Source: a virus. From it: a DNA stretch of 37,414 bases. The notes below the pieces were generated by a model. It saw nothing but the letters and a program-made list of their open reading frames with translations. It was not told the DNA's origin and did not search any database. This document shows positions 4,178 to 36,828 of the stretch, piece by piece; the first letter of the stretch is position 1; each line of letters begins with the position of its first letter. Position numbers and translations under genes: made by a program. The stretch covers positions 1 through 37,414 of the IMG/VR virus record IMGVR_UViG_3300032291_003704. One strand, written 5' to 3'.

Positions 4178-4515
4178 CTGACCGCCTTCTCACCCGCCCC
4201 CAGGTTGCCGACCGCTTCCAAATCACCGCCCGTCACTTGGCAGATTTGGAGAAAGAGCATTCAATCCCCATCCTCAAGCCTGGCCGTGCGGTGCGGTATG
4301 ACACCGCCGCCATCCTGCAACTGGAAGCCGCGATCAGATGCCCCTCACGCTCACCCGCAGCGGCGCCACAGGCGCTTGGCAAATCGTCGGGACAGTTGCC
4401 GGGCAGCGGATCAGGCAATCTGCGCGGACGTCTGACCGCAGGCTCGCGGAAGAAGCCAGGGCCGAACTCGAAGCCAGCCTCTATCGTAGTGCCGTTTACG
4501 GCGCGCGGGCGGTAG
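4174..4515 (+). CDS. xis: excisionase-like helix-turn-helix protein
   Basis: A 113-residue protein starting at ATG 4174 behind GGGGAG. Residues 4-56 form a MerR/HTH_17-type domain: LLTRPQVADRFQITARHLAD, then a short turn, then IPILKPGRAVRYDTAAILQL. This matches the winged helix of phage excisionases and AlpA-like regulators (recognition helix followed by G-R-x-x-R-Y). The last 59 residues lie in a different frame over the start of the integrase (178-bp overlap) and are low in complexity (Ser, Pro, Gly, Lys). The functional part is therefore probably the first 55-60 residues. Role: bends DNA at att and directs the integrase towards excision (family knowledge). Confidence 0.7.
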   Translation: MTDRLLTRPQVADRFQITARHLADLEKEHSIPILKPGRAVRYDTAAILQLEAAIRCPSRSPAAAPQALGKSSGQLPGSGSGNLRGRLTAGSRKKPGPNSKPASIVVPFTARGR

Positions 4516-5387
4516 TCACCTGGGATCAGGCCGTCAATTCCTATTTGGACGCAGCGCCGCGGAGCGCCGCCGAAAACGCCCGGCTGCTGCGCCTGCTGGA
4601 TAGCCTGACCGGCAAGCGCCTTGCAGACATCACGCAGGCCACCATTGACCGCGTGATCCAGGCCCGGTGCCGCCCGGGCGCTCAGCCCGCCACGAAGCTG
4701 CGGGAAGTGATCACGCCCGTCCGCGCCGTGCTGGCCCATGCCGCCAGGCGCCAGTGGTGCGATATGCCGAACTTCGAAGCGCCGAAGGGCGCCAGCGGCG
4801 TCAAGCGCACCCGATGGCTTACCCCGGCCGAGGCCAATTCCCTCACCGCCGCCGCCGCGCCGCACCTGGCGCCGCTGATCCTGTTTTTGCTGGGCACCGG
4901 CGCGCGCCTGAGCGAGGCGCTGGCGCTGCAATGGGCCGATCTGGACCTGACACATGGCCGCGCGCTGCTGCGCGATACCAAGCAGGGCCGAGACCGCGTG
5001 GCAAGCCTGCCGCCGCGCGCCGTGGCAGCCCTGGCCAATCTGCCGCACCGGGAAGGCCATGCCTTTCGCCCGCCGGCCAAGAAGCGCGGCAAGCAGCCGC
5101 TGGCCTATGCCGACACGGGCGGGCTGTATGGCGGGCAGATCGCCAGCGCCTGGCGCGGCGCCTGCAAGCGCGCCGGCATAGCCGATGCCAGCCCCCACAC
5201 GCTGCGGCACACCTGGGCAAGCTGGCATTATGCAATGCACCGGGATCTGATGCGGCTGAAATCGGATGGGGATTGGAGCACCGTGAGCCAAACCGAGCGC
5301 TACACGAAGCTGGTTCCGGGCACGATGGCGCCGGAAATTCGGAAATTCTTGGGGCTGACCAAGCCCAATAAGCGCGCGGCAGCCTGA
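4338..5387 (+). CDS. int: tyrosine-type site-specific integrase
   Basis: A 349-residue tyrosine recombinase. Residues 5-50 form an arm-binding or SAM-like N-terminus (GAWQIVGTVAGQRIRQSART). Residues about 63-145 form the core-binding domain, and about 160-345 the catalytic domain. Catalytic residues visible are Arg190 (GTGARLSE), probable Lys215, His287-x-x-Arg290 (HTLRHTW), Trp313 in place of the second His, and nucleophile Tyr322 (ERYTKL). The start at ATG 4338 lies inside xis in another frame; the protein homology begins there. Transcription runs towards the tRNA-like att core 117 bp downstream. Role: integration into, and with Xis excision from, a tRNA-Thr gene. Confidence 0.92.
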   Translation: MPLTLTRSGATGAWQIVGTVAGQRIRQSARTSDRRLAEEARAELEASLYRSAVYGARAVVTWDQAVNSYLDAAPRSAAENARLLRLLDSLTGKRLADITQATIDRVIQARCRPGAQPATKLREVITPVRAVLAHAARRQWCDMPNFEAPKGASGVKRTRWLTPAEANSLTAAAAPHLAPLILFLLGTGARLSEALALQWADLDLTHGRALLRDTKQGRDRVASLPPRAVAALANLPHREGHAFRPPAKKRGKQPLAYADTGGLYGGQIASAWRGACKRAGIADASPHTLRHTWASWHYAMHRDLMRLKSDGDWSTVSQTERYTKLVPGTMAPEIRKFLGLTKPNKRAAA

Positions 5388-8501: not shown

Positions 8502-9775
8502 CACGCCACCGCCACGAATTTTACTTGTTCACGCTGCTTGGGTTCATCGCAAAACACATTGAAGGGCAGGTTTGGCCCAAAGCGCGGATGCACAAAAAAC
8601 AAGCTTTGCGTCGGCGGGGCAAAGCTGTAGCGCTGCATTCGGCTGTATTCGTCAAACCCCTTCAAGGTTCCATTGACCACAAGCCCTGAATGCGGCTGCC
8701 AGATGCTTTGATGGAAGTGCCCCAACAGCAGCACATCAAAGTCGCGCCCGAGGGAACGCTCCGCCCTGCCGGTCTTGATCGCGCCGCGCATGATGGGCCC
8801 GAGCGCGCCGATAAGCCCGTCTCCGCCCTTCACGCCTAATTCATGCCCGTGCATCGCTAAAAACCGCGTGCCCGCCACCTGGAAAAGCGCATCGCCGCTT
8901 GCGGGTATCTGCCAGGTGATGCGCGCATCATCGCGCAGCCGATCCGAAAGCGCCTCATAAATCGCGTGGTCAAAGCAGCTTGTGGCGCCACCCTTTGCCA
9001 TGGGCTTCTTTGTCAGGCGCCCATGGTTGCCCGGCACACACACCGCATGCACGCGCCCAAAGGCTTCAGCCAGGCGCAGCAGCGCGGCATGCAAGCGGGA
9101 AACACACCAATTCGCCGCAGTCGGCGGGGCGCACCAATCGGTGCGGAACAATTCTTCATGCAACCAGCCAGAGACAAAATCCCCACCCAACACCACCACA
9201 ATGCCGGGATATTCCGGCGTCTTCACATGATGGAAGGCCAGGTGCAAAACCCGATCGATCACGGATTTCACGCGCCTGTCCGCAACCGCCGCGTTGAATT
9301 CATTGCAGCCATGAACCTGCGCTGAATCCACAGTTTCCCCAATATGCCAATCGGAAAGCATCAACACCGGCACGCCCGGCGCATCCTTACCGGCGGGCAC
9401 GCGCACGGTCCACTTCGGCGGGGCTTGCGGGTTTTCATGCAGCTCAGAAGACAGCGCGCGGAACTTATCCGCCTGGGCTGCCTTGGCATCCGCCTCCGCA
9501 AGCTGGCGCGCCAATTCCCGGTTCTTTGCCTGCAGGCTTTTGAAGGCCACCCGTTCTTCGGCGTTCATTTCCGGCAGGCGCTTGATACCGCTATCCTTAT
9601 GCCCCCGCGCTGGCGCCACCTTCAGCCCGGCTTGTTCGGCGCGCATCAGCCGATTATTCATGGCGTTGTGCCCGATGCCCAGCGCCTGCGCCGCGCGCAT
9701 TTTGTTGTGCCCGGCCTTGTCGTAGGCCTTGACGGTCTTGATCAGTTCGGCACGGCTGAGCGGGGCGGGGGGCAT
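8501..9775 (-). CDS. calcineurin-like metallophosphoesterase with N-terminal HTH
   Basis: A 424-residue protein; ATG 9775 overlaps the upstream TGA. Residues 8-50 look like a helix-turn-helix (LIKTVKAYDKAGHNKMRAAQ then ALGIGHNAMNNRLM). A coiled segment (70-112) follows. Residues 135-400 form a metallophosphoesterase domain with all metal motifs: D142-x-H144 (SDWHIGE), G-G-D199, G-N250-H251, H309-G-H and G-H353-F-H355. Related phage proteins are usually annotated as phosphoesterases of unknown substrate. The HTH suggests nucleic-acid targeting. It heads the three-enzyme block with the methyltransferase and the kinase. Confidence 0.8.
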   Translation of the reverse strand: MPPAPLSRAELIKTVKAYDKAGHNKMRAAQALGIGHNAMNNRLMRAEQAGLKVAPARGHKDSGIKRLPEMNAEERVAFKSLQAKNRELARQLAEADAKAAQADKFRALSSELHENPQAPPKWTVRVPAGKDAPGVPVLMLSDWHIGETVDSAQVHGCNEFNAAVADRRVKSVIDRVLHLAFHHVKTPEYPGIVVVLGGDFVSGWLHEELFRTDWCAPPTAANWCVSRLHAALLRLAEAFGRVHAVCVPGNHGRLTKKPMAKGGATSCFDHAIYEALSDRLRDDARITWQIPASGDALFQVAGTRFLAMHGHELGVKGGDGLIGALGPIMRGAIKTGRAERSLGRDFDVLLLGHFHQSIWQPHSGLVVNGTLKGFDEYSRMQRYSFAPPTQSLFFVHPRFGPNLPFNVFCDEPKQREQVKFVAVA

Positions 9776-11021: not shown

Positions 11022-12472
11022 CACACATCACTGTTACGGCTGGCATTCACGCTGCCGCCCGCATTGGTGATGGAAAGCGTGGTGCTGAACGGCACGATGG
11101 GCGAAGCGCCGGACCCGTTCCGCACATCCACCCGCGTATTGAAATTGCTGGCATAAATGAAGGTGACGCTTTCCGTCGCACCCGCCGCTTGCCGATCAAT
11201 GTAAGGCACGAATACATCATCCCCCGTGACAATGTTGCTGGCGAGCGCCGGGGAAAGGCCGGAGAAGGTCTTGGTGCCCGCATTGAAGGAAGAATAGGTG
11301 TAGCGCAGGCCCTTGATGCGAATGACGCCCGCCGAAGGGGTATCGGTCTTGATGCTTTCCACCACAGTCAGAGCAGTCGCGCCGGATGATGCGGCGACAG
11401 GCGTGTATTCATCTTTCAGCAGCCCGCCCGATCCATTGTCCCGCGCCACCAAAACGCGGTCGCCAGCCACCAGATTGCCGATGGTAATGCCGACAAGCGT
11501 AGGCGGAACCTGCGTGGTGCCGTCATGGGCGGTCAATTCATAACGGGTGCTTTCAGCCGGCAACACGCCAGTGATAAACCAGCCTTGCGCCAGAAAGAAC
11601 GTGCCGCCGGCAAAAGTGCCGAAGGGCGCCGATGGGATTTCAGTATAGGCCGCATTTAGAACGCGATACCGCCAGCCTGGGACGCCGTTCAAAGTGGCCG
11701 CGCTGTCTTCCCGCGTCAGATATTGAAGATACTGATAGGCTTCCTGCAAGGTGCAAGAATTGGAAAGCGTGATGGTGCCCTTATACAGCTTCGCGCCGTT
11801 CCCGTTTGCCAAATCCTGAGTGGTGTCCCCGAACGTCACCGAAACCTTGGTTGAAAGCGCCGCCGCCTGCGCCTCAGTCAGCAGGATACTCTTGTCAATC
11901 CCGGTTGAAAGCGCCGCGTTGCTTTCGCCGCCCGCAGACAGGTTCAGATCGAATTGCGAATAGGTCTGGCCCCACTTGCGCGAAAAAGCAGTGACGTTTC
12001 CGCTATCAATAAACGCACTTGCGGTCTTGACCTTGACCAAAATTTGAATGTGGCCATTGCTCCAGAACTTTGTCAGCTTGGCGCCGTTTTGAACCACATA
12101 GATCGGGCTGCCGGCCACAATGCCGCCAATTGTCTTTAGACCGGAGTATTGGGTCGCCCCGCCTTCCTGCTTTACCGTGCCAAACTTAAAATACTGTGCC
12201 GATTCATCGTCTAAATTGTAAAAGACCGTCCCTGCTTCATTCTGTTTTAATAGCGTCAAAGGCGCAGCGGCGTCTGGGTTTCTTCCGCCTGGAAGGGCTG
12301 AAGGGACAAGCGTCGTAATGGCGACAAGATCATTCCCGGAAGGCGCCTCATCATCGCTCAGCCCCTGCAAAAACTCATGCAGCGCCAATACAGTATAGAC
12401 TTCGGTACTGGCCCCGGCCTGGCGGCGAATGTCGCCCGTCGCGGAAATCGTGAAGTCTGTGGCTATCGGCAT
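11021..12472 (-). CDS. putative tail/virion structural protein
   Basis: A 483-residue protein starting at ATG 12472, directly after the spike gene. It is beta-rich with no catalytic motif. The N-terminus is ATGDIRRQAGASTEVYTVLA followed by LHEFLQGLSDDE. The middle contains TSAFIDSG-like and EAYQYLQYLTREDSAATLNG segments. The C-terminus is rich in short strands (SVTFIYASNFNTRVDVRNGS). Proteins of this size and type lie beside tail spikes in several alphaproteobacterial phages without known role. A fibre or whisker is a reasonable guess. Confidence 0.5.
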   Translation of the reverse strand: MPIATDFTISATGDIRRQAGASTEVYTVLALHEFLQGLSDDEAPSGNDLVAITTLVPSALPGGRNPDAAAPLTLLKQNEAGTVFYNLDDESAQYFKFGTVKQEGGATQYSGLKTIGGIVAGSPIYVVQNGAKLTKFWSNGHIQILVKVKTASAFIDSGNVTAFSRKWGQTYSQFDLNLSAGGESNAALSTGIDKSILLTEAQAAALSTKVSVTFGDTTQDLANGNGAKLYKGTITLSNSCTLQEAYQYLQYLTREDSAATLNGVPGWRYRVLNAAYTEIPSAPFGTFAGGTFFLAQGWFITGVLPAESTRYELTAHDGTTQVPPTLVGITIGNLVAGDRVLVARDNGSGGLLKDEYTPVAASSGATALTVVESIKTDTPSAGVIRIKGLRYTYSSFNAGTKTFSGLSPALASNIVTGDDVFVPYIDRQAAGATESVTFIYASNFNTRVDVRNGSGASPIVPFSTTLSITNAGGSVNASRNSDV

Positions 12473-18980: not shown

Positions 18981-20539
18981 CAGCCCGCCCCCCACAAGGT
19001 AATTTCAAGACGCCGCGCCGATAGGCTTTCACGCCACCCAACCACCACGCCCGAAAAGCCATTTTCAAGGCCGAAAGCCGGGTATGTGATGCGCCCGATG
19101 TGCCCGATCTCCACCTGCCCAAGCAGCCTGTCAGTCACCACCCGCACCATGCGCGGCCCGGCTTCCAGCAACGTGCGCCACTTGGCCGCACGCGCCAGCG
19201 CTTCGCTTTCGTTCCAGTAAGCAGCCGGAAAGCTCACTTCCCGCTGCTGGGCCACGCGGGACGTGATCAAGGCGCTTTCCGCCCGCGCGAAGCTGCCTTC
19301 CTGTCCAAGGCGTTGCCGGTCTGCGGCAGATACCGCGCCCGCCACATTTGAAAGCGGCGCATGGTTGCGCTGCCAGCGCACTGCAATGGCGCGCGGCAAG
19401 GGGCGCAGGTTCGCCGGCAAGGGCAAAGGCTCGCATGACAAAATGCAGGCCGAAGGCAAATCAAACTGTGCTGTATCCGTCGCCAATGGATCAGCCAGGC
19501 GCAGCTTGCCGCCCCGCGTGCCTGAAAGCATGGCGCCAGACCCGGCTAGAATTTCTTCCACCGCTGCAAGCGTGCTGATAGCCCCCGCCCCTTGGTGAAA
19601 GCCCACCACGCCGGGCAGGTCAATTTCTGCAAAGCCCCAAGCGTCTTCGTCAAATTCAGTCAGACCAAAAGCGCCACCAAGCGTTTCCAGCATCCGGCGC
19701 AGAATGGTGCCGGTTGTGTTTGCGTAAATCGGCAGGGCATCGCCGCGCGCATCGGCGGTAACGTCACCATCCGGCGCGCCGCCAAGCTGGAAAAGGCCAA
19801 GCGCCGGAAAGTCCCGCGCCTGGCCCACGGCTGGCGTGCCGCTTGTCACAATAACCTGCGCCACGCCGCGAATACGGATAGCATCATGCCCGGCCATCGC
19901 GCGCCAATGGCTTTGATAGGTTGGCAAGCTGCCAGCGCCTAAATCAAGGTTGCCCAGGAAAACGGGCGCGATATTGAACACCTGCCCCAGCGTCACCGGC
20001 TTAGGCCGGCCCTTTAATTCTGCGCCGCCTTCCTGCCCGCCGGTGCCTTGATAGAGCGTGGGCTGCAACGGCGTCACCATACGTTCCGTCAAATCATTCA
20101 GGGCGATGCGGGACGTGAAATCGCCCGCGCGGTCAATACTGCGCAGCACGCCAACAAAAGAAACCGCCGCGCTGGCAAGCGTGGCGCCGAAATCACTGGC
20201 GCGCGGGTTGAAGGCGGGCAAGGCCAGCACCCGCACGGCCCGGCCATCTGCGCCACCAAACCGCGCCAGATCAGCGCTGAAGCCATCCCCATCAGCCAAG
20301 GCAATCTCAGACACCGTAAGCGCCACGCGCCCGCCCACGCCCACCGCATCGGCGGCAGACTGGCTTATTTCAATCTCCCCTATGATGCGCGGCTCGTAAA
20401 AGGCCAGCGCGGGGCTATCGATTGCACTTGTGACAAACCCGGCAGAGGCAAGGCGCAGCGTGTCCACATTTTGCAACGAAACAAAAGCCGCCGGCAGGAA
20501 GGCCGGGGCGATCATTGCCGGGGCATCAAAGGCCATCAT
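18980..20539 (-). CDS. putative tail-tip/baseplate hub-like protein
   Basis: A 519-residue protein; ATG 20539 overlaps the small upstream gene. It is beta-rich at the N-terminus (SLQNVDTLRLASAGFVTSAI, YEPRIIGEIEISQS, GGRVALTVSEIALAD). A middle part has a repeated strand-loop layout (FVGVLRSIDRAGDFTSRIAL). The C-terminus ends in a Tyr/Gly-rich barrel (IGHIGRITYPAFGLENGFSG, VVVGWRESLSARRLEITLWG), resembling the closing strands of tail-tip or hub proteins. It is the best candidate for the central tail-tip protein, because no lambda J, K, I or L homologue is visible. Confidence 0.45.
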   Translation of the reverse strand: MMAFDAPAMIAPAFLPAAFVSLQNVDTLRLASAGFVTSAIDSPALAFYEPRIIGEIEISQSAADAVGVGGRVALTVSEIALADGDGFSADLARFGGADGRAVRVLALPAFNPRASDFGATLASAAVSFVGVLRSIDRAGDFTSRIALNDLTERMVTPLQPTLYQGTGGQEGGAELKGRPKPVTLGQVFNIAPVFLGNLDLGAGSLPTYQSHWRAMAGHDAIRIRGVAQVIVTSGTPAVGQARDFPALGLFQLGGAPDGDVTADARGDALPIYANTTGTILRRMLETLGGAFGLTEFDEDAWGFAEIDLPGVVGFHQGAGAISTLAAVEEILAGSGAMLSGTRGGKLRLADPLATDTAQFDLPSACILSCEPLPLPANLRPLPRAIAVRWQRNHAPLSNVAGAVSAADRQRLGQEGSFARAESALITSRVAQQREVSFPAAYWNESEALARAAKWRTLLEAGPRMVRVVTDRLLGQVEIGHIGRITYPAFGLENGFSGVVVGWRESLSARRLEITLWGAG

Positions 20540-20694
20540 GCGTTTGGCGCCTTTGCCGAGATTTCCAGCAACACCACCGTCGCGCCGGGTTGCGCGCCGA
20601 GCGTCAAGGCTGGGCGGAAAGCTGGCGCGGCGGTTGACATGGAAGCTGCCAGCATGGCCGGCGCATCCATTGCGGGCGCGTCACCCGCCAACAT
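20536..20694 (-). CDS. 52-residue small protein between tail genes
   Basis: ATG 20694 lies 14 bp inside the end of the upstream membrane gene, and the TGA at 20536-20538 overlaps the next start (ATGA). The N-terminus is rich in Ala, Met and Pro (AGDAPAMDAPAMLAASM). The end, GATVVLLEISAKAPNA, looks like a strand. The motif DAPAM recurs at the start of the next protein (MAFDAPAMIAPA), hinting at a duplicated leader or a shared interaction motif. No homologue is recognised. Reading-frame coupling on both sides supports a true gene. Confidence 0.5.
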   Translation of the reverse strand: MLAGDAPAMDAPAMLAASMSTAAPAFRPALTLGAQPGATVVLLEISAKAPNA

Positions 20695-26884: not shown

Positions 26885-27612
26885 GACAACCTCCCTGCTA
26901 CGGATGCGTTGACTTCACGTTTTACTGCCCGGCGCGCGGCTTCAGCCGGGCCGGAAATGTCCAGCAATTTCTTGCCCTGAATTTGCTTGCGCAGTGCAAA
27001 AAGCGGCAGGCCCTTTGGCTGATCCGGCGCGTAGAAAACCGCCGTCAGGCCATCGCCCTTGCGCGCCTTCATAATCACGATGCGCCGCCCGGCCAGGGGG
27101 GCATTCCGGCCTTTCGGCTTGGCCTTTGCTATGCGCGGGCCGCGCTTGGCGTTATGGGCGGAAACCACCACGGCGCGCAGCAGCTTTGCCGCCGCTTCAA
27201 TATCAGAAACCTTCCGCCGCTGGCCGGCCGGCACCGCGCCGCCCTTGCGGCTTTTGGTGGAATAGCCAAGGCCAAGATGGATCGCGGCGGGCAGGGCAAT
27301 CACCAGATATTCAGCGCGCACCGCGCGAACAAGGCGGCTTTCTTCAAAGGCGCGGTGCAAGATGGTGCTTTTGGAATACACAACAGCCGCCGGACCCATG
27401 TTCAGCTTTGATCGGCGCTTGGGGTATTTGTCCAGGCGCCAAGCCTTTTCCAGCCCTTCACCCAAATTCGCGCGGCGCACCTGGCCGCGCAATTCAGCCT
27501 GCAGCGCCTCACCCGTGCGATGCACGCCATCACGAAGGGCAGAGGCTAGAATTTCCTGACGCCGCTTGATTTCTTCCGAAACCATGCCCTGGACCTTCAT
27601 CAGGATTTTCAC
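26881..27612 (-). CDS. DUF6441-like minor tail protein
   Basis: A 243-residue basic protein; GTG 27612 overlaps the GT stop (GTGA). The N-terminus is a long helix (EEIKRRQEILASALRDGVHR). Then come GLEKAWRLDKYPKR, LNMGPAAVVYSKSTIL, FEESRLVRAVRAEYLVIALP and a basic C-terminal half rich in Lys/Arg/Gly. The A-W-R…Y-P…A-x-V-Y-S-K…L-x-I-P pattern fits the DUF6441 family of phage proteins. Length and context suggest a tail-completion or Z-like role. It lies between the tail chaperones and the tape measure. Confidence 0.65.
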   Translation of the reverse strand: MKILMKVQGMVSEEIKRRQEILASALRDGVHRTGEALQAELRGQVRRANLGEGLEKAWRLDKYPKRRSKLNMGPAAVVYSKSTILHRAFEESRLVRAVRAEYLVIALPAAIHLGLGYSTKSRKGGAVPAGQRRKVSDIEAAAKLLRAVVVSAHNAKRGPRIAKAKPKGRNAPLAGRRIVIMKARKGDGLTAVFYAPDQPKGLPLFALRKQIQGKKLLDISGPAEAARRAVKREVNASVAGRLS

Positions 27613-28471
27613 TCGCTGCCCCTTCGCCGTTTCTTCGCCGCTTCCAGTTCCGCTTCAATCCCGCCCAGCGTGCGGAAGGCATCGAAAACCCATGCCGCCT
27701 GGTCCGCCACACCGCCCGCATCCGGCCAGGTGGCATAGCCACCCATGCCAGCGCGGCAAGCGAACCAAATCTGCACAAATTCAATGAATGGCCGCGGCGT
27801 GGTGATGCGCGGGTTCTCAGCAACCTCATCATCACCGATCAGAAAAGCGCCCCCATCGGAAGCGAATCGGCCTTCGCCTGCGCCAATGCCGCTGAGGGCG
27901 GCAAAGGCGCTTTTCAGTTTTTTTCCGCGGCCTTGGTGACCTGCATCATATCCATGGCAGCGGCGGCAATGATGGAAAGGTCTTCTTCGCCGCATTCTTC
28001 CAGCAGCGCATCCGGCACCAGGCCGCGCGTGCGGGCAAAGGCGGGCAGAAGGTCAGAATTCCAGCCGCGCAAAGCGTGGCGCGCGGTCACCAATGGCATC
28101 AGTGAAAACCAGCGCACCTGGTCCGCCAGCATGGCGGAATAGGCCGGCACCCGGCGCGCCGCGCTTTCCATGACGCGGAGCGCATCTTCATCGGCCTTGG
28201 TCATGGGTTCCGCACCATCGGCCAAGGCCGCTTCAGCGCGGGCAATCACCGCCAGCAGATCGGGCAGGTTATCCGGCGCCAATTCCTTCAACGCGCTGGC
28301 CAGCCCTGCCAGTAATTCATCGCGCATCGGCAGGCGGCAGCCTTCGCGCGCCATGTCGGCGCGATATTCCGCGCGTTCGCGGACGCTCAGCGGCGCCACG
28401 GTATAAATCGCGCGCTTGCCTTCCACCTGCCGCGTGGTGTGGCGGGAAAGGATTGCTTCTTCGTTTTTCAT
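27609..28471 (-). CDS. tail assembly chaperone GT fusion made by -1 frameshift
   Basis: Joined product: gene G read from 28471 to the slippery site at 27917-27923, then -1 to the stop at 27609, about 287 residues. The downstream frame starts LKSAFAALSGIGAG and contains FIEFVQIWFACRAGMGG and IEAELEAAKKRRRG. It has no start codon of its own near the G end, which argues for frameshift translation. Family knowledge: G and GT bind the tape measure and recruit tail tube subunits; only a few percent of ribosomes shift. Placement between the tube and the tape measure fits. Confidence 0.75.
27914..28471 (-). CDS. tail assembly chaperone G
   Basis: A 185-residue protein, ATG 28471 behind AAGGGAC; the upstream extension to 28513 is in the hairpin region and is rejected. 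Composition is helical: QVEGKRAIYTVAPLSVRERA, LPMRDELLAGLASALKELAP, AMLADQVRWFSLMPLVTARH. The last codons overlap the slippery site and the TGA at 27914-27916. It sits between the tail tube and the tape measure, the invariant place of G in long-tailed phages. Confidence 0.7.
   Translation of the reverse strand: MKNEEAILSRHTTRQVEGKRAIYTVAPLSVRERAEYRADMAREGCRLPMRDELLAGLASALKELAPDNLPDLLAVIARAEAALADGAEPMTKADEDALRVMESAARRVPAYSAMLADQVRWFSLMPLVTARHALRGWNSDLLPAFARTRGLVPDALLEECGEEDLSIIAAAAMDMMQVTKAAEKN
27917..27923 (-). other. programmed -1 ribosomal frameshift site A-AAA-AAC
   Basis: On the minus strand the G frame ends GAA-AAA-AAC-TGA. The heptamer A-AAA-AAC is in the correct phase for a -1 slip, and the stop follows at once. 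After the slip the frame runs 102 codons to 27609. Confidence 0.85.
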
Positions 28472-28498
28472 GGGATGTCCCTTGTGCGAGGGTTGGTT

Positions 28499-28524
28499 GG
28501 CCGGGCCGCGCACACGGCCCGGCC
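28499..28524 (-). terminator. strong hairpin after the tail tube gene
   Basis: GGCCGGGCCG (28499-28508) pairs perfectly with CGGCCCGGCC (28515-28524), 10 bp with a 6-nt loop. It lies between the tail tube stop (28591) and the G start (28471). There is no U-run, so attenuation or 3'-end protection is as likely as termination. Confidence 0.5.
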
Positions 28525-28590
28525 AGTGTCACGCGCGGCTTGCCGGTCAAGGGCCCGGCCGCGCGCAACCGCGTTCCGCTGTGCGGCGGA

Positions 28591-29769
28591 TCAGAAGGCG
28601 GTGATGAAGACGGGGGCGTCAGCGCCGTCCGCCTGGAAGCCAATGCTGTCAACCGCAAGCGAACCGCGATCACCTGGGTTCATGGCCGTGGCGCGAATGG
28701 AAGGCAGCACAATGGCGAAGCAATTGCCCGCCACGCTACCCAGGATGGCGCCCAAAATCATGTTGGTGCCGTTGCGGAAGTTGTTGAAGCGGCTGACGGA
28801 AACAGTGGTGTCCATCAGCGGGTCAAGGCTGCCAGCCACGTCGCGTTGCACAGGCACGGCGGGGTCATAGCCTTCAGTGGCTTCCGGGTTTTCCGGCAGC
28901 ACCGTGACCACACCAGCCTGCACCGAAAGCGCGCGCACGCGGGCGACCGCACCATTCAAGCGGCAGGCGCCGGCCACAAAGCGCGGGGCGGTTGGGCGGA
29001 TAACCGTGTTCCAGCCGGTCGGCAGGGCAGTCGCGGTGTAATCCACAAAGTTCCCGACCAGATCGAAGGACAGCATGCCGATCCCGCCCGTGGTCAAATC
29101 CAGGGACCAGGTGCCCAAGCAACCCGTGAAGCGCCAGCGCATGCCATCCGCGAAGAAGTAGATGGTGCAGGTCTTGAACACCGCCTCATCGCTCGTCGGC
29201 GCGTAGCGCTGATTGATCGGGATTTGCGCGGTTTGGGACACGCTGAAGGCTGGCGTGACTGTGTGGATAAGCGTGGCCACGCGGCCTGCAGTGTAATCGG
29301 CAATGGCACTCAGCGCGGGCTGGCCGCCCGTGATACCACCAAGCGCAATCGGCATGCCGCGATATTGCTGCGCCGTGCTGCCAAAAGTGGCGCCAAGCGT
29401 GCCGCCGTTCACCGTGCCAGCCGTCAAGGCAAGCGGGGCAACAGGCACCGCCGCAGCGGTAAGGGTTTCCACCATGGTCGCGCATTGCAGCAAGCGGCCC
29501 CATTCCGGCGCCGTGCCGGCCGCGCCCGAACCGCGCAAAGGCATCATCAGGCGCAGGCGCGGGCGAAGCCCACCAACAATGGCGGGCGAGCGATCCAGGC
29601 TGCCAGTCAATTCCGGGTTCGGCACCGCAGACTGATCGAACTGGATTTGGCAATCAGACGCAATCCAATCCGAATTGGCGGGCGTGCCAGCAATGGCATC
29701 AATGCCAGGCGTGGTTTCGATTTTAACAGCGACGGCAGCTTTGCGCAGCGCCACCAGATTGTTGCTCAT
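28591..29769 (-). CDS. major tail tube protein
   Basis: A 392-residue protein, ATG 29769 behind AAAGGA. The N-terminus LRKAAVAVKIETTPGIDAIA with DWIASDCQIQFDQ and GSLDRSPAIVGG, then LRPRLRLMMPLRG, matches the tail tube family that polymerises as hexamer rings (tube-like beta sandwich). The middle contains CTIYFFADGMRWRFTGCLGT and LTTGGIGMLSFDLVGNFVDY. It is longer than many tube proteins, leaving room for a surface domain. Position before G/GT and after the connector genes fits. Expected to be one of the most abundant virion proteins. Confidence 0.75.
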   Translation of the reverse strand: MSNNLVALRKAAVAVKIETTPGIDAIAGTPANSDWIASDCQIQFDQSAVPNPELTGSLDRSPAIVGGLRPRLRLMMPLRGSGAAGTAPEWGRLLQCATMVETLTAAAVPVAPLALTAGTVNGGTLGATFGSTAQQYRGMPIALGGITGGQPALSAIADYTAGRVATLIHTVTPAFSVSQTAQIPINQRYAPTSDEAVFKTCTIYFFADGMRWRFTGCLGTWSLDLTTGGIGMLSFDLVGNFVDYTATALPTGWNTVIRPTAPRFVAGACRLNGAVARVRALSVQAGVVTVLPENPEATEGYDPAVPVQRDVAGSLDPLMDTTVSVSRFNNFRNGTNMILGAILGSVAGNCFAIVLPSIRATAMNPGDRGSLAVDSIGFQADGADAPVFITAF

Positions 29770-29780
29770 GGGTTATCCTT

Positions 29781-30224
29781 TCAAGGAGCGTATGGTGATT
29801 TGGCCGGCGTCATCGCCATGGCTTCAAAGCTGGCGTTGAATTCGCCCGCGGGCTTGACGGATTCTTCTGTCGAATACAGTTCGAACTGCGCACTGCCGAC
29901 ATTGCACTGGACAAAGCCTGACTCAAGGTCATGATCCTGCAGCGCCGCAACCACGCGCGCATGCAAATCAGACATCGCCTGGTCTGCCGCCAAATCCGTG
30001 GCGGCGGTGATGTAGCCCGCGACCGCAAAGCCGATTCGCCATTGGGTTTCCCCAAAGGACATATCTTCGTCAGCATCCATGCTGGTGCCCGTGATAACCA
30101 CGGCAGGGCAATGGCGCGGGTCCAAAGCAGCGCGATACGCGCGCAGCACCGTGACGCCGGTAAGCTGCGCGGTCAGGCGCGTGGCGACTGCGGCCAAGAT
30201 TGCTTCGCGAATGGGCGTAGGCAT
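29781..30224 (-). CDS. tail terminator/minor tail protein (gpU-like position)
   Basis: A 147-residue protein; ATG 30224 overlaps the upstream TGA (TGATG). Alpha/beta fold pattern: IREAILAAVATRLTAQLTGV at the N-terminus, then strand-rich CPAVVITGTSMDADEDMS and a helical ATDLAADQAMSDLHARVVAA. This order (helix, strands, helix) and the size match tail terminator proteins of lambda U type. It caps the tail after the tape measure length is reached. It lies directly before the tail tube gene. Confidence 0.55.
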   Translation of the reverse strand: MPTPIREAILAAVATRLTAQLTGVTVLRAYRAALDPRHCPAVVITGTSMDADEDMSFGETQWRIGFAVAGYITAATDLAADQAMSDLHARVVAALQDHDLESGFVQCNVGSAQFELYSTEESVKPAGEFNASFEAMAMTPAKSPYAP

Positions 30225-30550
30225 CAGGGCTCTGCCGCCAGCATCAAACGCCAGACCAGCTGCAGGTCATCACGTTCCGCTGATTTGATGCGCAGATCAT
30301 CCGTGCCGATGACCAGCCTATCGCCTTCGGCGGGCTGGGTGGGAACATCTGCAATCAGCATATCCGCCATGAGCGATGCCTGCAGATTACCCATGCCGCC
30401 GGCCGGGCCATAAACTGGCTGGATGGGCGCTGAGCGGATCACGCGCAGCGCCACCCCAGGGCCGGAGCCGCCAGCGTAATAGGTGGCGGGTTCCGATAGG
30501 TTTTGGTCCGCGTGCAGCACGGCGGCTGCGGCGGAAAAGGCGTTTGACAT
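30224..30550 (-). CDS. head-tail connector (lambda FII-like position)
   Basis: A 108-residue protein, ATG 30550, after a hairpin. The start MSNAFSAAAAVLHADQNLSE with ATYYAGG, then beta-rich segments (VALRVIRSAPIQPVYG, MLIADVPTQPAEGDRLVI) and the end RDDLQLVWRLMLA fit the small head-tail attachment family (FII/Phage_attach type), in size as well. It would sit between the portal ring and the tail. Confidence 0.6.
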   Translation of the reverse strand: MSNAFSAAAAVLHADQNLSEPATYYAGGSGPGVALRVIRSAPIQPVYGPAGGMGNLQASLMADMLIADVPTQPAEGDRLVIGTDDLRIKSAERDDLQLVWRLMLAAEP

Positions 30551-30558
30551 AGGGAAGC

Positions 30559-30582
30559 CCGGGGCGGGCTACGCCGCCCCGG
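30559..30582 (-). terminator. strong hairpin after the cement protein gene
   Basis: CCGGGGCGG (30559-30567) pairs perfectly with CCGCCCCGG (30574-30582), 9 bp, 6-nt loop, between the cement stop (30590) and the next start (30550). On the minus strand it is followed by GCTTCCC, no U-run. Attenuator or stabilising element. Confidence 0.5.
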
Positions 30583-30589
30583 TTCAGCC

Positions 30590-30940
30590 TTAGGCGGCAG
30601 TCGCGTTCGGGCGACCCAAGCGCACCAGGATTTCCGTGGCGCCGGAGGCATAGTTGCCCGGGCCAATGGCCCAGCCGATGCAGTTATTGCTGGCGGCAGT
30701 GGCGGTGACATTGCCGGCGGTATTGTCCCAAAACACCCGCACGCCTTCATTGATGCCTGCGCCGGTTGCCTTGGGCAGACGGAAAACACCTTCGGTCATG
30801 ATGGCGACGTTGGCGCCAGATGCAGCGGCATGAATCGCCACCCCAAACAGCAGGCCAACCAACACGCCAGCGCCGGAAGCCACTGCAGCCGGAGCGGTAA
30901 CGGTGACAACATCAGAATCACCAACTTTATTTGTAGCCAT
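30590..30940 (-). CDS. capsid cement/decoration protein (DUF2190-like)
   Basis: A 116-residue protein; ATG 30940 behind AAGGGG. A GTG three codons earlier lies in the Shine-Dalgarno spacing and is less likely. The pattern DSDVVTVTAPAAVASGAGVL, VGLLFGVAIHAA, then EGVFRLPKATGAGINEGVRV and FWDNTAGNVTA fits the DUF2190 family, small beta proteins that bind the outside of the capsid. It directly follows the major capsid gene, the usual place of a cement protein. It is set off by hairpins on both sides. Confidence 0.75.
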   Translation of the reverse strand: MATNKVGDSDVVTVTAPAAVASGAGVLVGLLFGVAIHAAASGANVAIMTEGVFRLPKATGAGINEGVRVFWDNTAGNVTATAASNNCIGWAIGPGNYASGATEILVRLGRPNATAA

Positions 30941-30978
30941 GGGAATCACCCCTTTCGATCAGATGGATGGATGGGAAA

Positions 30979-31002
30979 GCGGGCGGCGTTTCAGCCACCC
31001 GC
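30979..31002 (-). terminator. strong hairpin after the major capsid gene
   Basis: GCGGGCGGC (30979-30987) pairs with GCCACCCGC (30994-31002), 9 bp with one G-U type pair, 6-nt loop. On the minus strand it follows the capsid stop (31009) and is followed by TTTCCC. Confidence 0.5.
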
Positions 31003-31008
31003 ATCAGA

Positions 31009-33054
31009 TCAGCCCAGGTTTGCGGCCATGGCGCGCGGCTGCACCGCCGCGGCGCCAAAATCGAACACCACGCGGAAAGTCATGCCGCTATAGCGGATGT
31101 CTTCGGCGCTCGTGATGGTGGGCGCGCGCTGGCCTTGGAGATACGCAATCTCCACCCCGCGAATATCGCCACGGCAGAGGTAGTAAGGATCATTCCCGGT
31201 ATCCAGGAAAGGTTCCATCACCAGCGAAGTGCTGGAACGATACGCATCAGGCAGCACCGCACCAGTCGCGGTTGGCACAATGCGGTTGCCCAACAGTTCC
31301 AGCGCCGTGTCTTCTTCATCCGGGCCAACCAGCAGCACCGTGGAAGAAGGCGGCGGCAGCGGCGCGGCACTCTCACCCGCGCGGGCCGGGCTGGTTTGCT
31401 TGGTCAGAAGCGCGCGCAGCTCAGCAAAGGTGCCGACAGCCAGATTACCAGCCGTGCCCAGGTTGTTACGGCCAGCCGCGAACAGCGCCGTGGCGCCACC
31501 CGCCGGCCAGTTGGCATTGGCGGTCAAGATGCCAAACACCACACGGCGCAGCGCCGTGTAGCCAGCCAAGGCCGCGCCCGAAAGCACATCCTGGAAGGCG
31601 CGCGTATCGTCATTCACCAAAGCCTGGCGCGTCAGCGCCACCAGGCGGCCGCGTTCCTGCACCGCATAGGTCTGGCCTTCTTCCGCGATTGAGCCATAGG
31701 TATAAGGCGCGCCTTCAGAAATGGCGGCCACTTCCGGGAATTGGCCAGCAAAGGCAGAAGTGATGGTTTTGAAATCCGCCACATCAACTTCGCGCGTCCA
31801 AGAAGCCCAGGTGTTCGGGTATTGGCCAAACAGGCCCTGCACAGACTTGTTCGAGGAATTGACAAGGATCAGCGGGAAGTCGCTGGTGGAATGCTGCGCG
31901 TTGATTCGACCGGACAAAACCATTTCCGCCAGGTCCGCGCCGGACATGCGATGCACGTCCTTCACACCATTGGCCACCGCGATTTCACGCATAAGGCCAT
32001 GGAAACCCATATTGGCGAATTCGCGGCTTTCCGCCGGCGGCGCCTGGTTGGAAAGCTGCGCGGAAAGCGCACCAGTCCAGCGGGCACGCAGCGTATCGCG
32101 TTCATCACGGATCACGCTGACCACCGAAGAATTTGGCATGATCGGGGCGGGGCTGCGCGCCGCCACCGCTTCAAGCGCGGCTTCAAGCGCGGCTTCGCGC
32201 GTGGCGCCAGCCTTGATCTGCGCCACAATAAAATCGGCGGGCAGGCCGTTGCGGCCAGCGATACCTTCAAGTTCGGCAACGCTTGCGCTGATGGGTTGAA
32301 CCGCTACGGTTTTGGCCGGAGCGGCGGATGGGGCCGGGGCATTCCCGCCGGCCGGGGCGATGGATTCGGACATGCCGATCTCCTTGGCTACTGCCGGCGA
32401 AATTGCCGGCGGGTTGGAAGATACCGGCGCCGCTACCGGCACCGCATCGCGCGCCGCGCGCACCAGCCCACAAAAGGCTGCAGGCGCGGCGGCGTAACGA
32501 TTGGGGTCAAACGCCGCAAAGGCGCGAATTTCTGCGGGCTCCGCCGTTTCACTGGCAAAGCCTTCCGACACGGCCATATCCGCATCAAACCAGGTTTCGG
32601 CGCGCATCAGCGCGGCTACGGTTTGTTCATCCTTGCCGGATTTCACGGCATAGGTACGGCGATACGCGCCGCTGATCTGGTCCAGCACATCGGCCTGTTG
32701 GCGCATGGTTTCAGCATCGCCCAGCGCGCCACCCCATGCTTCATGGATCATCAGAAAGGCATTACCCGGCATCACGATCCGGTCACCCGCCATAGCGATA
32801 AGGCTGGCTGCTGATGCGGCAATGCCTTCCACAATCACGGTCTTCGGCCCGGCATGGCGCGCCAGCATGTTGTGGATAGCGATGCCCGCCAGCGCATCCC
32901 CGCCATAGGAATTGATCGAAATGGTCAGCGGTTGATTGGCCGAAAGCTTTTTCAATTCCGCCGCGACACCGGCGGGTGTAATGTCCCAACCGACATCACC
33001 CAACAGCGAAAGCACCGCGGCCTGGTCGGCCGCAGCGCGCATTTGCACTGGCAT
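31009..33054 (-). CDS. prohead protease (ClpP-like)/major capsid protein fusion
   Basis: A 681-residue protein, ATG 33054 behind AAGGGGG. Residues about 12-175 form a ClpP-like protease: ISINSYGGDALAGIAIHNML, then EGIAASAASLIAMAG with nucleophile Ser81 and MIHEAWGG with His104. Residues about 180-320 form an Ala/Pro-rich, partly helical linker acting as a scaffold. Residues about 335-681 form a major capsid domain (SEGAPYTYGSIAEEGQTYAV, TRQALVNDDTRAFQDVLSG, FDTGNDPYYL-type end). Such fusions are known; the protease cuts itself and the scaffold from the capsid part during prohead maturation. It replaces separate protease and capsid genes. Confidence 0.9.
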   Translation of the reverse strand: MPVQMRAAADQAAVLSLLGDVGWDITPAGVAAELKKLSANQPLTISINSYGGDALAGIAIHNMLARHAGPKTVIVEGIAASAASLIAMAGDRIVMPGNAFLMIHEAWGGALGDAETMRQQADVLDQISGAYRRTYAVKSGKDEQTVAALMRAETWFDADMAVSEGFASETAEPAEIRAFAAFDPNRYAAAPAAFCGLVRAARDAVPVAAPVSSNPPAISPAVAKEIGMSESIAPAGGNAPAPSAAPAKTVAVQPISASVAELEGIAGRNGLPADFIVAQIKAGATREAALEAALEAVAARSPAPIMPNSSVVSVIRDERDTLRARWTGALSAQLSNQAPPAESREFANMGFHGLMREIAVANGVKDVHRMSGADLAEMVLSGRINAQHSTSDFPLILVNSSNKSVQGLFGQYPNTWASWTREVDVADFKTITSAFAGQFPEVAAISEGAPYTYGSIAEEGQTYAVQERGRLVALTRQALVNDDTRAFQDVLSGAALAGYTALRRVVFGILTANANWPAGGATALFAAGRNNLGTAGNLAVGTFAELRALLTKQTSPARAGESAAPLPPPSSTVLLVGPDEEDTALELLGNRIVPTATGAVLPDAYRSSTSLVMEPFLDTGNDPYYLCRGDIRGVEIAYLQGQRAPTITSAEDIRYSGMTFRVVFDFGAAAVQPRAMAANLG

Positions 33055-34842: not shown

Positions 34843-36828
34843 TCAAATCCAGTCTGATCGGCGTTCAAACCAGGCGCCGCGCGGGGCGGCAGTTGCAGTT
34901 TTCGCTTGTGGCGCGGGCGGTGTTGCAGCAGCCGCCAACGTCTTCAGGTCAGGCTGCCAAAGCGTTATCATATCCGCCTGCGCATCTTCGGGCTTTCCAA
35001 CCCGCTCAGCGATCAGCCTTTCCCAATGTGCATCGGTCAGGTTTGCGGTTTCATGCCTCGCCAAGGCGCGGGCATAAATGGCGATATCCCATTGTTCATT
35101 GCGGGGCCGCACCTTGCGCCATTCCCGCCTGGTGAACCCGGCGCGGTTGCCGATTTCAACGCAGGCTTCAGCGGTGATCTGTTCGAAAAACCCAAGGTCC
35201 AAGGCTTGCGGGAAATGCGCCGCACCCTTCGGCCAGGCGCCGGTCGCGTCAGGCCCCATTTCCGTGAGCCGTAGCGCCGCCGCCACTTCGGTCTTCAAAT
35301 CCCATGTCCCGACCGGCCAAAGAAGGACCGATCCGATTTTCTTGCCGTTGTAATCAACATCTTGCGGCTTTGGCATGCCAAGCGGCGGTTCACCCCACTT
35401 TGCCCGGCCATCCAGCGCCATGATGCGCGGGTCTCGGCCGGCGGCGTGGCGGCGAGCGTATGAATAAACGCGCTGCGGCAAATAGCCCGAATCAATCCCG
35501 TAAGAAATCGGCGCCCATTCGCGATTCCAGGCATCGCGATACCGCTTGCCGATCACCTCATCCAAAGCGAGCCATACCGGATCAAGCGCGGGGTCGCCTT
35601 CCAGAATTCCCCCATCTATCCACCAGGACGATAGGTTGCGATCCCATCCGTACACACCCCACTCCAACCGATCCCCCTGGACGTCAACCGCGCCGGTCAG
35701 GAACAGCACGCCGGGCGGAATGCGCCGCGGCGGATAGGCTTCACGCCGGCGCCACAGCAATTCGTGGCTGGGCAAATCATAGCGGGGCTCATAAGGCAGC
35801 CCCAACACCTGCTGCGTGAACACCTTATCCAGCAGCGGATCATCCTGGCTGCGTTCGCGCTGTTCCGCCACCCAGGCCCAGGATACGAAAGGCGAATACA
35901 GCGCGTTCAGCGCGAAGCTTGCGTGATGCACCAAAAGCTCCGGCCGCTCATGTACCCATTCACCGGCGGCCAGCATCGCTGCCTTGTGGCGATGTTCGAT
36001 CCCTGAACCGCATGCGGTGCAGTGATACAAAGCGGCGCTTGGCTCACCTTTCGGCCAGCGCAGATTCTCAAACACCAGCGGCTGCTTCGCGCCGCAGTCT
36101 GGGCAGGCCACTTGGAACCGGCCCTGGCTACCATCTTCAAAACGGGCGCTGATGCGGCACTGGCCCTTGATGCCGGGCGTGGATGCCGCGGCGATCTTCT
36201 CCCGTCCTGTCCAGGCGATGGCGCGGGCCTCAGCCATGGCAACCGGATCGCCTCGGCCATCCACATCCATCGGGAATTCTGAGACTTCATCCAACAGGAT
36301 CACCCGCTTGGTGACCATCTGCAGGCCCTTGGAACTATTCGCCCCGGTTAGGTCAATATTCCCGCCGGGGAAATTCTTGCGTTTGGTGGTGGAACCAGTT
36401 TCATCCCGGCTCACCAGCGCCTTCACCTTGGCCGATACTGCCGGCGAATTGGCCAGCATCGGTTCCAGCTTATCGCGGTTGAACTTCTGCGCTTCATCAA
36501 GGCTGGGCAGAACCCAAAGAACGGTTGTCGGCGTTTCCGCGATAACTTGCCCGGCCAAATTCAGCAGGGCCATTGTCTTGCCGACCTGGGCACTAGCCAT
36601 CAGCGTCACGCGCCGGGCCGGATGTGCTAGGCTCAGCGCGTCCATCACGTCGCGCAGGTAAGGTACGCGGTCAGTGCGCCAGCGGCCCGGGAAGGGGCCT
36701 TCTTCCGGCCCCAAAACGCGATGTGCATCAGCCCAGGCAGAAACCAAGCGTTCCGGCGGTGAAGCCAGCCCGCGCGCCCAAGCCCGGCGAAGAATAGGCG
36801 CCGGGTCAGGCAGGGTCTGGAACATCAT
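34843..36828 (-). CDS. terL: terminase large subunit (GpA family)
   Basis: A 661-residue packaging motor; ATG 36828, with a second ATG at 36825 closer to ideal Shine-Dalgarno spacing. ATPase domain: Walker A SAQVGKT (79-85), Walker B VILLDE (176-181) and a coupling motif AAASTPG (213-219). A four-Cys zinc knuckle is at C242-x-x-C245 and C270-x-x-C273. Nuclease domain from about 375: GAVDVQGDRLEW with Asp382 and Asp386, then YGIDSGY and EQWDIAIYARA. Family knowledge: GpA-type terminases cut at cos sites. It overlaps terS by 23 bp. Confidence 0.95.
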   Translation of the reverse strand: MMFQTLPDPAPILRRAWARGLASPPERLVSAWADAHRVLGPEEGPFPGRWRTDRVPYLRDVMDALSLAHPARRVTLMASAQVGKTMALLNLAGQVIAETPTTVLWVLPSLDEAQKFNRDKLEPMLANSPAVSAKVKALVSRDETGSTTKRKNFPGGNIDLTGANSSKGLQMVTKRVILLDEVSEFPMDVDGRGDPVAMAEARAIAWTGREKIAAASTPGIKGQCRISARFEDGSQGRFQVACPDCGAKQPLVFENLRWPKGEPSAALYHCTACGSGIEHRHKAAMLAAGEWVHERPELLVHHASFALNALYSPFVSWAWVAEQRERSQDDPLLDKVFTQQVLGLPYEPRYDLPSHELLWRRREAYPPRRIPPGVLFLTGAVDVQGDRLEWGVYGWDRNLSSWWIDGGILEGDPALDPVWLALDEVIGKRYRDAWNREWAPISYGIDSGYLPQRVYSYARRHAAGRDPRIMALDGRAKWGEPPLGMPKPQDVDYNGKKIGSVLLWPVGTWDLKTEVAAALRLTEMGPDATGAWPKGAAHFPQALDLGFFEQITAEACVEIGNRAGFTRREWRKVRPRNEQWDIAIYARALARHETANLTDAHWERLIAERVGKPEDAQADMITLWQPDLKTLAAAATPPAPQAKTATAAPRGAWFERRSDWI

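Follow-up and report, generated by a model that had tools for sequence, protein, structure and literature searches.

Hairpins behind the capsid, cement and tail tube genes of a temperate siphophage as putative mRNA 3'-end elements within the late operon

A phage virion of this kind holds hundreds of capsid, cement and tail tube subunits, against about 6 to 12 of many of the neighbouring proteins encoded on the same RNA. In the viral DNA analysed here (37,414 nucleotides, called the window in what follows), GC-rich hairpins stand behind the genes of these three bulk proteins, and the earlier note on this DNA had proposed that they set protein ratios from one operon, by partial termination or by protection of upstream 3' ends. 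The question is whether these hairpins are more than chance products of the gaps in which they lie and, if so, what they would do to the late transcript.

The window is a contig of a temperate siphophage, with an integrase at 4338-5387. Its late genes lie on the minus strand, in the order small and large terminase, a small gene, portal, protease/capsid, decoration protein, FII-like connector, tail terminator, tail tube, probable chaperones and tape measure. The names given previously to the three bulk genes hold, by protein family for the capsid fusion and the cement protein (Table 1) and by predicted structure for the tail tube, which was modelled because its family match is weak (phrog_290). 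The AlphaFold2 model of the tail tube (pLDDT 68, pTM 0.73) aligned over most of its length with the tail tubes of P74-26 and T5 (VIA-align Z 22.1 for 8ed0 and 21.0 for 9iny). No near DNA relatives of the window were found in the phage collection, and the capsid, searched in genome contigs, gave a single poor match. An Rfam scan of the window returned no match at the gathering score, and a tRNA scan found nothing. The closest known phage for both the tail tube (38%) and the large terminase (34843-36828, 49%) is Synechococcus phage MinM1, unlike the other terminase matches, which are mostly proteobacterial.

Table 1. Hairpins and genes of the late operon discussed in the text (window coordinates)
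Feature	Coordinates	Strand	Description
Capsid hairpin	30979..31002	minus	9-bp stem GCGGGUGGC / GCCGCCCGC with one G-U (sense strand), 6-nt loop, ~-19 kcal/mol
Cement hairpin	30559..30582	minus	Perfect 9-bp stem CCGGGGCGG / CCGCCCCGG, 6-nt loop, 8 nt upstream of next start codon
Tube hairpin	28498..28525	minus	11-12 bp GC stem (perfect 10-bp core 28499-28524), no U-tract, ~-27 kcal/mol
Second tube-gap hairpin	28528..28569	minus	10-12 bp helix 28560-28569 / 28528-28537 (RNAfold), upstream of main tube hairpin
ClpP-type protease / major capsid fusion gene	31009..33054	minus	PF25209 + PF00574; phrog_133
Head decoration (cement) protein gene	30590..30949	minus	phrog_122, E=2e-24; likely start ATG at 30940
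Head-tail attachment protein (lambda FII-like)	30224..30550	minus	PF05354, E=2e-12; next gene past cement hairpin
Tail tube protein gene (T5 pb6 / P74-26 type)	28591..29769	minus	AlphaFold2 model
Probable tail assembly chaperone (G-like)	27914..28471	minus	No family match; lies between tail tube and tape measure, gene end carries a -1 slip site

Hairpins do exist at all three places. Just three of the non-coding gaps in the late operon exceed 30 nt (30950-31008, 30551-30589 and 28472-28590). Each of them holds one or more hairpins, and the other late junctions are free of a comparable stem, as had been noticed earlier. Each of the three genes has its stem on the 3' side, followed by a gene on the same strand. 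A fourth, hairpin-free late gap at 20540-20680 was rejected, as a previously unlisted 52-codon ORF (20536-20694, minus strand; MLAGDAPAMDAPAM...) covers this interval between two tail genes. Some details of the first description need correction. The stems had been called perfect over 9-10 bp, which is right for the cement hairpin and for the core of the tube hairpin but overlooks the G-U pair of the capsid stem, and they had been placed directly after their genes, whereas the tube hairpin starts 66 nt past the stop codon, with the second helix in between. They had also been said to lack U-runs: this applies to the tube hairpin, which is followed by ACCAACC and has no U-tract in ACCAACCC, and roughly to the cement hairpin, where GCUUCCCU makes a poor U-tract, but not to the capsid hairpin, which runs into UUUCCC, a partial U-tract, with UUUU or UUUUU at the same place in relatives.

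The single GC-rich stems fold with about -19 to -27 kcal/mol. Compared with 200 dinucleotide shuffles, the capsid gap (z -3.3, 0/200) and the tube gap (z -3.1, 2/200) fold clearly better, and the cement gap only weakly so (z -1.5, 18/200). Over the entire 37.4 kb, perfect stems of at least 9 bp are as frequent as expected from shuffles (2 observed, 2.05 expected), and both fall inside the gaps, which make up 0.6% of the window; what is unusual is the location of the perfect stems, their window-wide count being ordinary. An intrinsic-terminator scan of the window called none of the three hairpins, and its total was that of shuffled sequence.

The earlier note had proposed covariation of the stems in related phages as a check, and such covariation was found at the tube but not at the capsid or the cement hairpin. 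In the main tube helix, 5 of the 10 pairs are changed on both sides among 17 haplotypes and pairing is 100%; the second helix is paired in 95.9% of cells in 17 relatives, with one pair showing a two-sided change, and the two helices jointly reach 97.9% of cells paired, against 27-54% for slid control structures. The tube stem occurs in the same place as two very different sequences (GGCCGGGCCG-CGGCCCGGCC and GGCGCAGGGG-CCCCTGCGCC), and was altered by paired substitutions within flanks that can otherwise be aligned. As independent events are few, we regard this covariation as good, short of overwhelming, evidence of selection on pairing. The capsid stem is paired in all 9 near haplotypes, with loop and spacer varying, and carries two changes, both one-sided and both pair-preserving (U-G to U-A, and G-C to G-U); the cement stem is paired in 12 of 12 haplotypes, again with one-sided, pair-preserving changes. 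No two-sided change was seen in either set, where variation is too small to count covariation. Taken with the tube, the relatives lend support to selection on the hairpins, which appears to act on their pairing. The tube hairpin is missing in several lineages. It was also considered as a mobile repeat and rejected: 9 viral contigs contain the exact 26-mer, each in a single copy, and the names of all nine recur among the tail-tube relatives.

Capsid profiles extended the comparison to 29 clusters at <60% capsid identity. The post-capsid gap folded better than shuffles (p <= 0.05) in 17 of these clusters (Fisher 8e-16). This test was repeated with a simpler gap rule because automatic gene calls had mis-set several gaps; the simpler rule in turn ended the post-capsid gaps of L101 and L115 early, at an ATG within the stem (likewise the tube gap of L096), and these two gaps gave z -3.0 and -2.5 in the automatic gene-call test. 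About 19 of the 29 divergent capsid lineages accordingly have an unusually stable predicted post-capsid fold, mostly of unrelated sequence and with a U-tract or none: a U-run is present at the stem in L085, L140, L148 and L193 and absent in L120, L160, L188 and L201. In L085 (3391-3465), L087 and L098, which share the tail tube with the window phage and have a 49% identical capsid, the post-capsid site holds a canonical terminator, GGCGGGC-GCAA-GCCCGCC-TTTTT. Phages with the same capsid type also have post-capsid stems, with z -3.5 in Rhodobacter, -3.6 and -4.1 in two from Paracoccus and -2.7 in Pseudomonas; the gap of Synechococcus phage MinM1 folds no better than shuffles (z -0.5). Five lineages with short gaps (L078, L082, L133, L169 and L186) have no post-capsid stem. 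Within the same loci, z below -2 was reached by 13 of 23 post-capsid gaps versus 10 of 31 other late gaps (Mann-Whitney p 0.034), a comparison based on automatic gene calls in which several gaps are mis-set. Hairpins in late gaps are therefore common, and moderately commoner after the capsid gene.

The cement site is the least secure of the three, because weak statistics are combined there with a mosaic joint and with loss in near relatives. The hairpin is absent from L005, L006, L009 and L016, whose decoration protein is 86-91% identical, and also from L088 and L101; in relatives without it, stop and start codons are 2-3 nt apart. The cement hairpin thus appears dispensable. Comparison with L005, L009, L085, L094, L088 and L101 shows that the cement stop codon (30590) coincides exactly with a sharp recombination joint: some of these relatives have an exchanged head side, others an exchanged connector side. 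Identity changes there from 50-60% upstream to 90-100% downstream in L085 and L094, and from about 85% upstream to unrelated sequence downstream in L005 and L009. That exactly the three most abundant virion genes carry hairpins is true of the window phage and is not a rule, given the loss of cement and tube hairpins in relatives, the other late gaps that fold well and the additional stems of HK97 described below.

Stem-loops in comparable places are on record for known phages. In the late operon of N15 (AF064539), they are annotated as putative terminators after exactly the decoration gene gp7, the major head gene gp8 and the major tail gene gp13. The gp8 and gp13 stems lead into short U-tracts (CCTTTCTGG, TTCCCCCC), similar to the capsid stem of the window with its UUUCCC; N15 differs in that the decoration gene precedes the capsid gene and a full U-run follows the gp7 stem. 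HK97, unlike the window phage, presumably has no decoration protein. Its record (AF069529) marks putative terminators after the major head gene gp5 and the major tail gene gp12, as in the window, and the gp12 stem (ATGCCGGG-TTGT-CCCGGCAT) lacks a U-run like the window's tube stem, but further ones are marked after the portal, gp11 and gp15. Lambda (J02459) shares with the window GC stems immediately 3' of cement gene D and capsid gene E, and differs in the seven T that follow the D stem and in a gap of just 15 nt after the tube gene V. SPP1 has terminators at 8775-8815 and 11,255-11,304, at the ends of the capsid gp13 and tail-tube gp17.1* genes, though with canonical U-tracts and in a low-GC host (PMC6316719). 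Leaky terminators past capsid genes that lower downstream expression are known from T7, where Tphi after gene 10 is the only terminator of the phage polymerase and genes 11-12 are expressed by read-through (PMC5592923), and from phiX174, where TJ, TF and TG are 40-60% efficient (PMC11527146). Both differ from the window in being characterised terminators of other polymerase systems. We take Tphi, as well as TJ, TF and TG, to have a U-tract. According to later accounts of the Rhodobacter puf operon, an intercistronic hairpin affects segmental mRNA stability and the ratios of complexes (Klug 1987, in PMC10253847 and PMC6238624). As these accounts have it, puf resembles the window in that the hairpin lies between cistrons of one operon, and it affects product ratios there; it differs as a host operon in which the stability effect was measured. 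Literature searches found no functional test of the N15 stem-loops, no RNA data on transcript levels or ends for N15 or HK97, and no paper treating hairpins after major virion genes as a class. The late operon of the window, encoded on one strand, shows the N15/HK97-type layout of stem-loops in the gaps behind the major head and tail genes, and also the N15/lambda-type stem after the decoration gene, though L005 and L009 are without it. In the light of the N15, HK97, lambda, SPP1, T7 and phiX174 precedents, we consider the feature real but largely familiar, of a known and rarely discussed kind.

We suggest that the hairpins probably are operon-internal mRNA 3'-end elements, formed by weak termination or protecting against 3' exonucleases, that raise the output of the gene upstream. 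The stem would fold in the late transcript once the ribosome has left the bulk virion gene at its stop codon, and an mRNA ending at the stem would be left, either because some polymerases terminate or because 3'-to-5' exonucleases acting on longer RNA halt there; the upstream RNA, for capsid, cement or tube, would then be more abundant than that of the downstream genes. Such RNA ends, and the protein ratios resulting from them, we infer from what is observed directly in the position, stability, kept pairing and recurrence of the stems. The ratio-setting proposed previously is in this form partly supported, since a 3'-end role would fit the position, the tube covariation, the recurrence among lineages and the phage precedents, and it is not new in outline. 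Against it stand the cement hairpin, weakly above shuffles and absent in close relatives, the five capsid lineages free of a hairpin and the many other late gaps that fold well.

Sequence by itself cannot choose between termination and 3'-end protection. Partial intrinsic terminators only, with termination alone giving a transcript step-down as at TJ, TF and TG of phiX174, are a possible but less probable explanation, in keeping with the UUUCCC behind the capsid stem, the GC stem that precedes UUUUU at the corresponding position in L085, L087 and L098 and the phiX174 and T7 precedents. The absent U-run leaves termination possible, because 78% of the structured transcript 3' ends in the alphaproteobacterium Methylosinus lack a U-tract (PMC12403871), and many of the database relatives of the terminase are alphaproteobacterial; in Bacillus subtilis, liaH terminates with UUCCGCACG (PMC8060035). 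However, ACCAACC follows the tube hairpin, and stems persist while U-tracts vary freely. Because decorated capsids need cement and capsid protein in similar copy number, it would make little sense to separate the two genes by a strong terminator. The late hairpins of lambda, moreover, sit in what we take to be a Q-antiterminated operon. For these reasons, and in view of puf, we consider 3'-end protection the likelier general function, supplemented at the capsid hairpin by weak termination. With strong terminator variants, transcript abundance was 2.2-fold higher on average, which was put down to the stability of the upstream mRNA (PMC11696848).

Three further explanations were weighed. It is improbable that the stems serve translation, insulating or weakening initiation of the next gene. 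The cement stem would suit this, as it stops 8 nt short of the connector start codon with no Shine-Dalgarno sequence left, the connector downstream is a low-copy protein, and the 2-3 nt between stop and start in stem-free relatives suit coupled initiation; but the capsid and tube stems are distant from the following start codon, the cement gene is preceded by a purine-rich GAAAGGGG, and in lambda and N15 the post-decoration stem precedes the major capsid gene, which needs strong translation. Slightly more improbable still is that the hairpins are module-boundary sequences kept as recombination joints, with no role as RNA: the sharp joint at the cement stop, where identity jumps in opposite directions in different relatives, points that way, but the tube stem was changed by paired substitutions inside alignable flanks, and unrelated lineages have different stems at the capsid site, sharing no boundary sequence. 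Least probable of all are chance products of GC-rich gaps. An ordinary window-wide count of perfect stems and the z of just -1.5 at the cement gap agree with chance, and the concentration of stems in the gaps, the tube covariation and the recurrence over 29 clusters disagree with it; a chance origin is largely refuted for the capsid and tube hairpins, and the cement hairpin could still have arisen in this way.

If hairpins acting as 3'-end elements set the difference in subunit numbers, they would be a simple and portable device for ratio-setting in the late operons of phages. Because post-capsid stems recur across many divergent lineages, U-tract or not, the old "putative terminator" annotations can be tested together, as a single class. 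More speculatively, and in our view rather unlikely, hairpins after bulk genes could form a control layer of tailed-phage late operons that is widespread and has been re-invented repeatedly, and in which selection keeps the stem and not the U-tract and ratios are set by 3'-end protection even under antitermination.

The gene that follows the tube gap shows a feature of its own. An A AAA AAC slip site lies at 27914-27924 (minus strand), directly 5' of the TGA of the probable chaperone gene, and a -1 shift there would carry translation into the 27609-27995 frame (AAE-K-K-LKSA), as is usual for the G/GT frameshift of tail chaperones.
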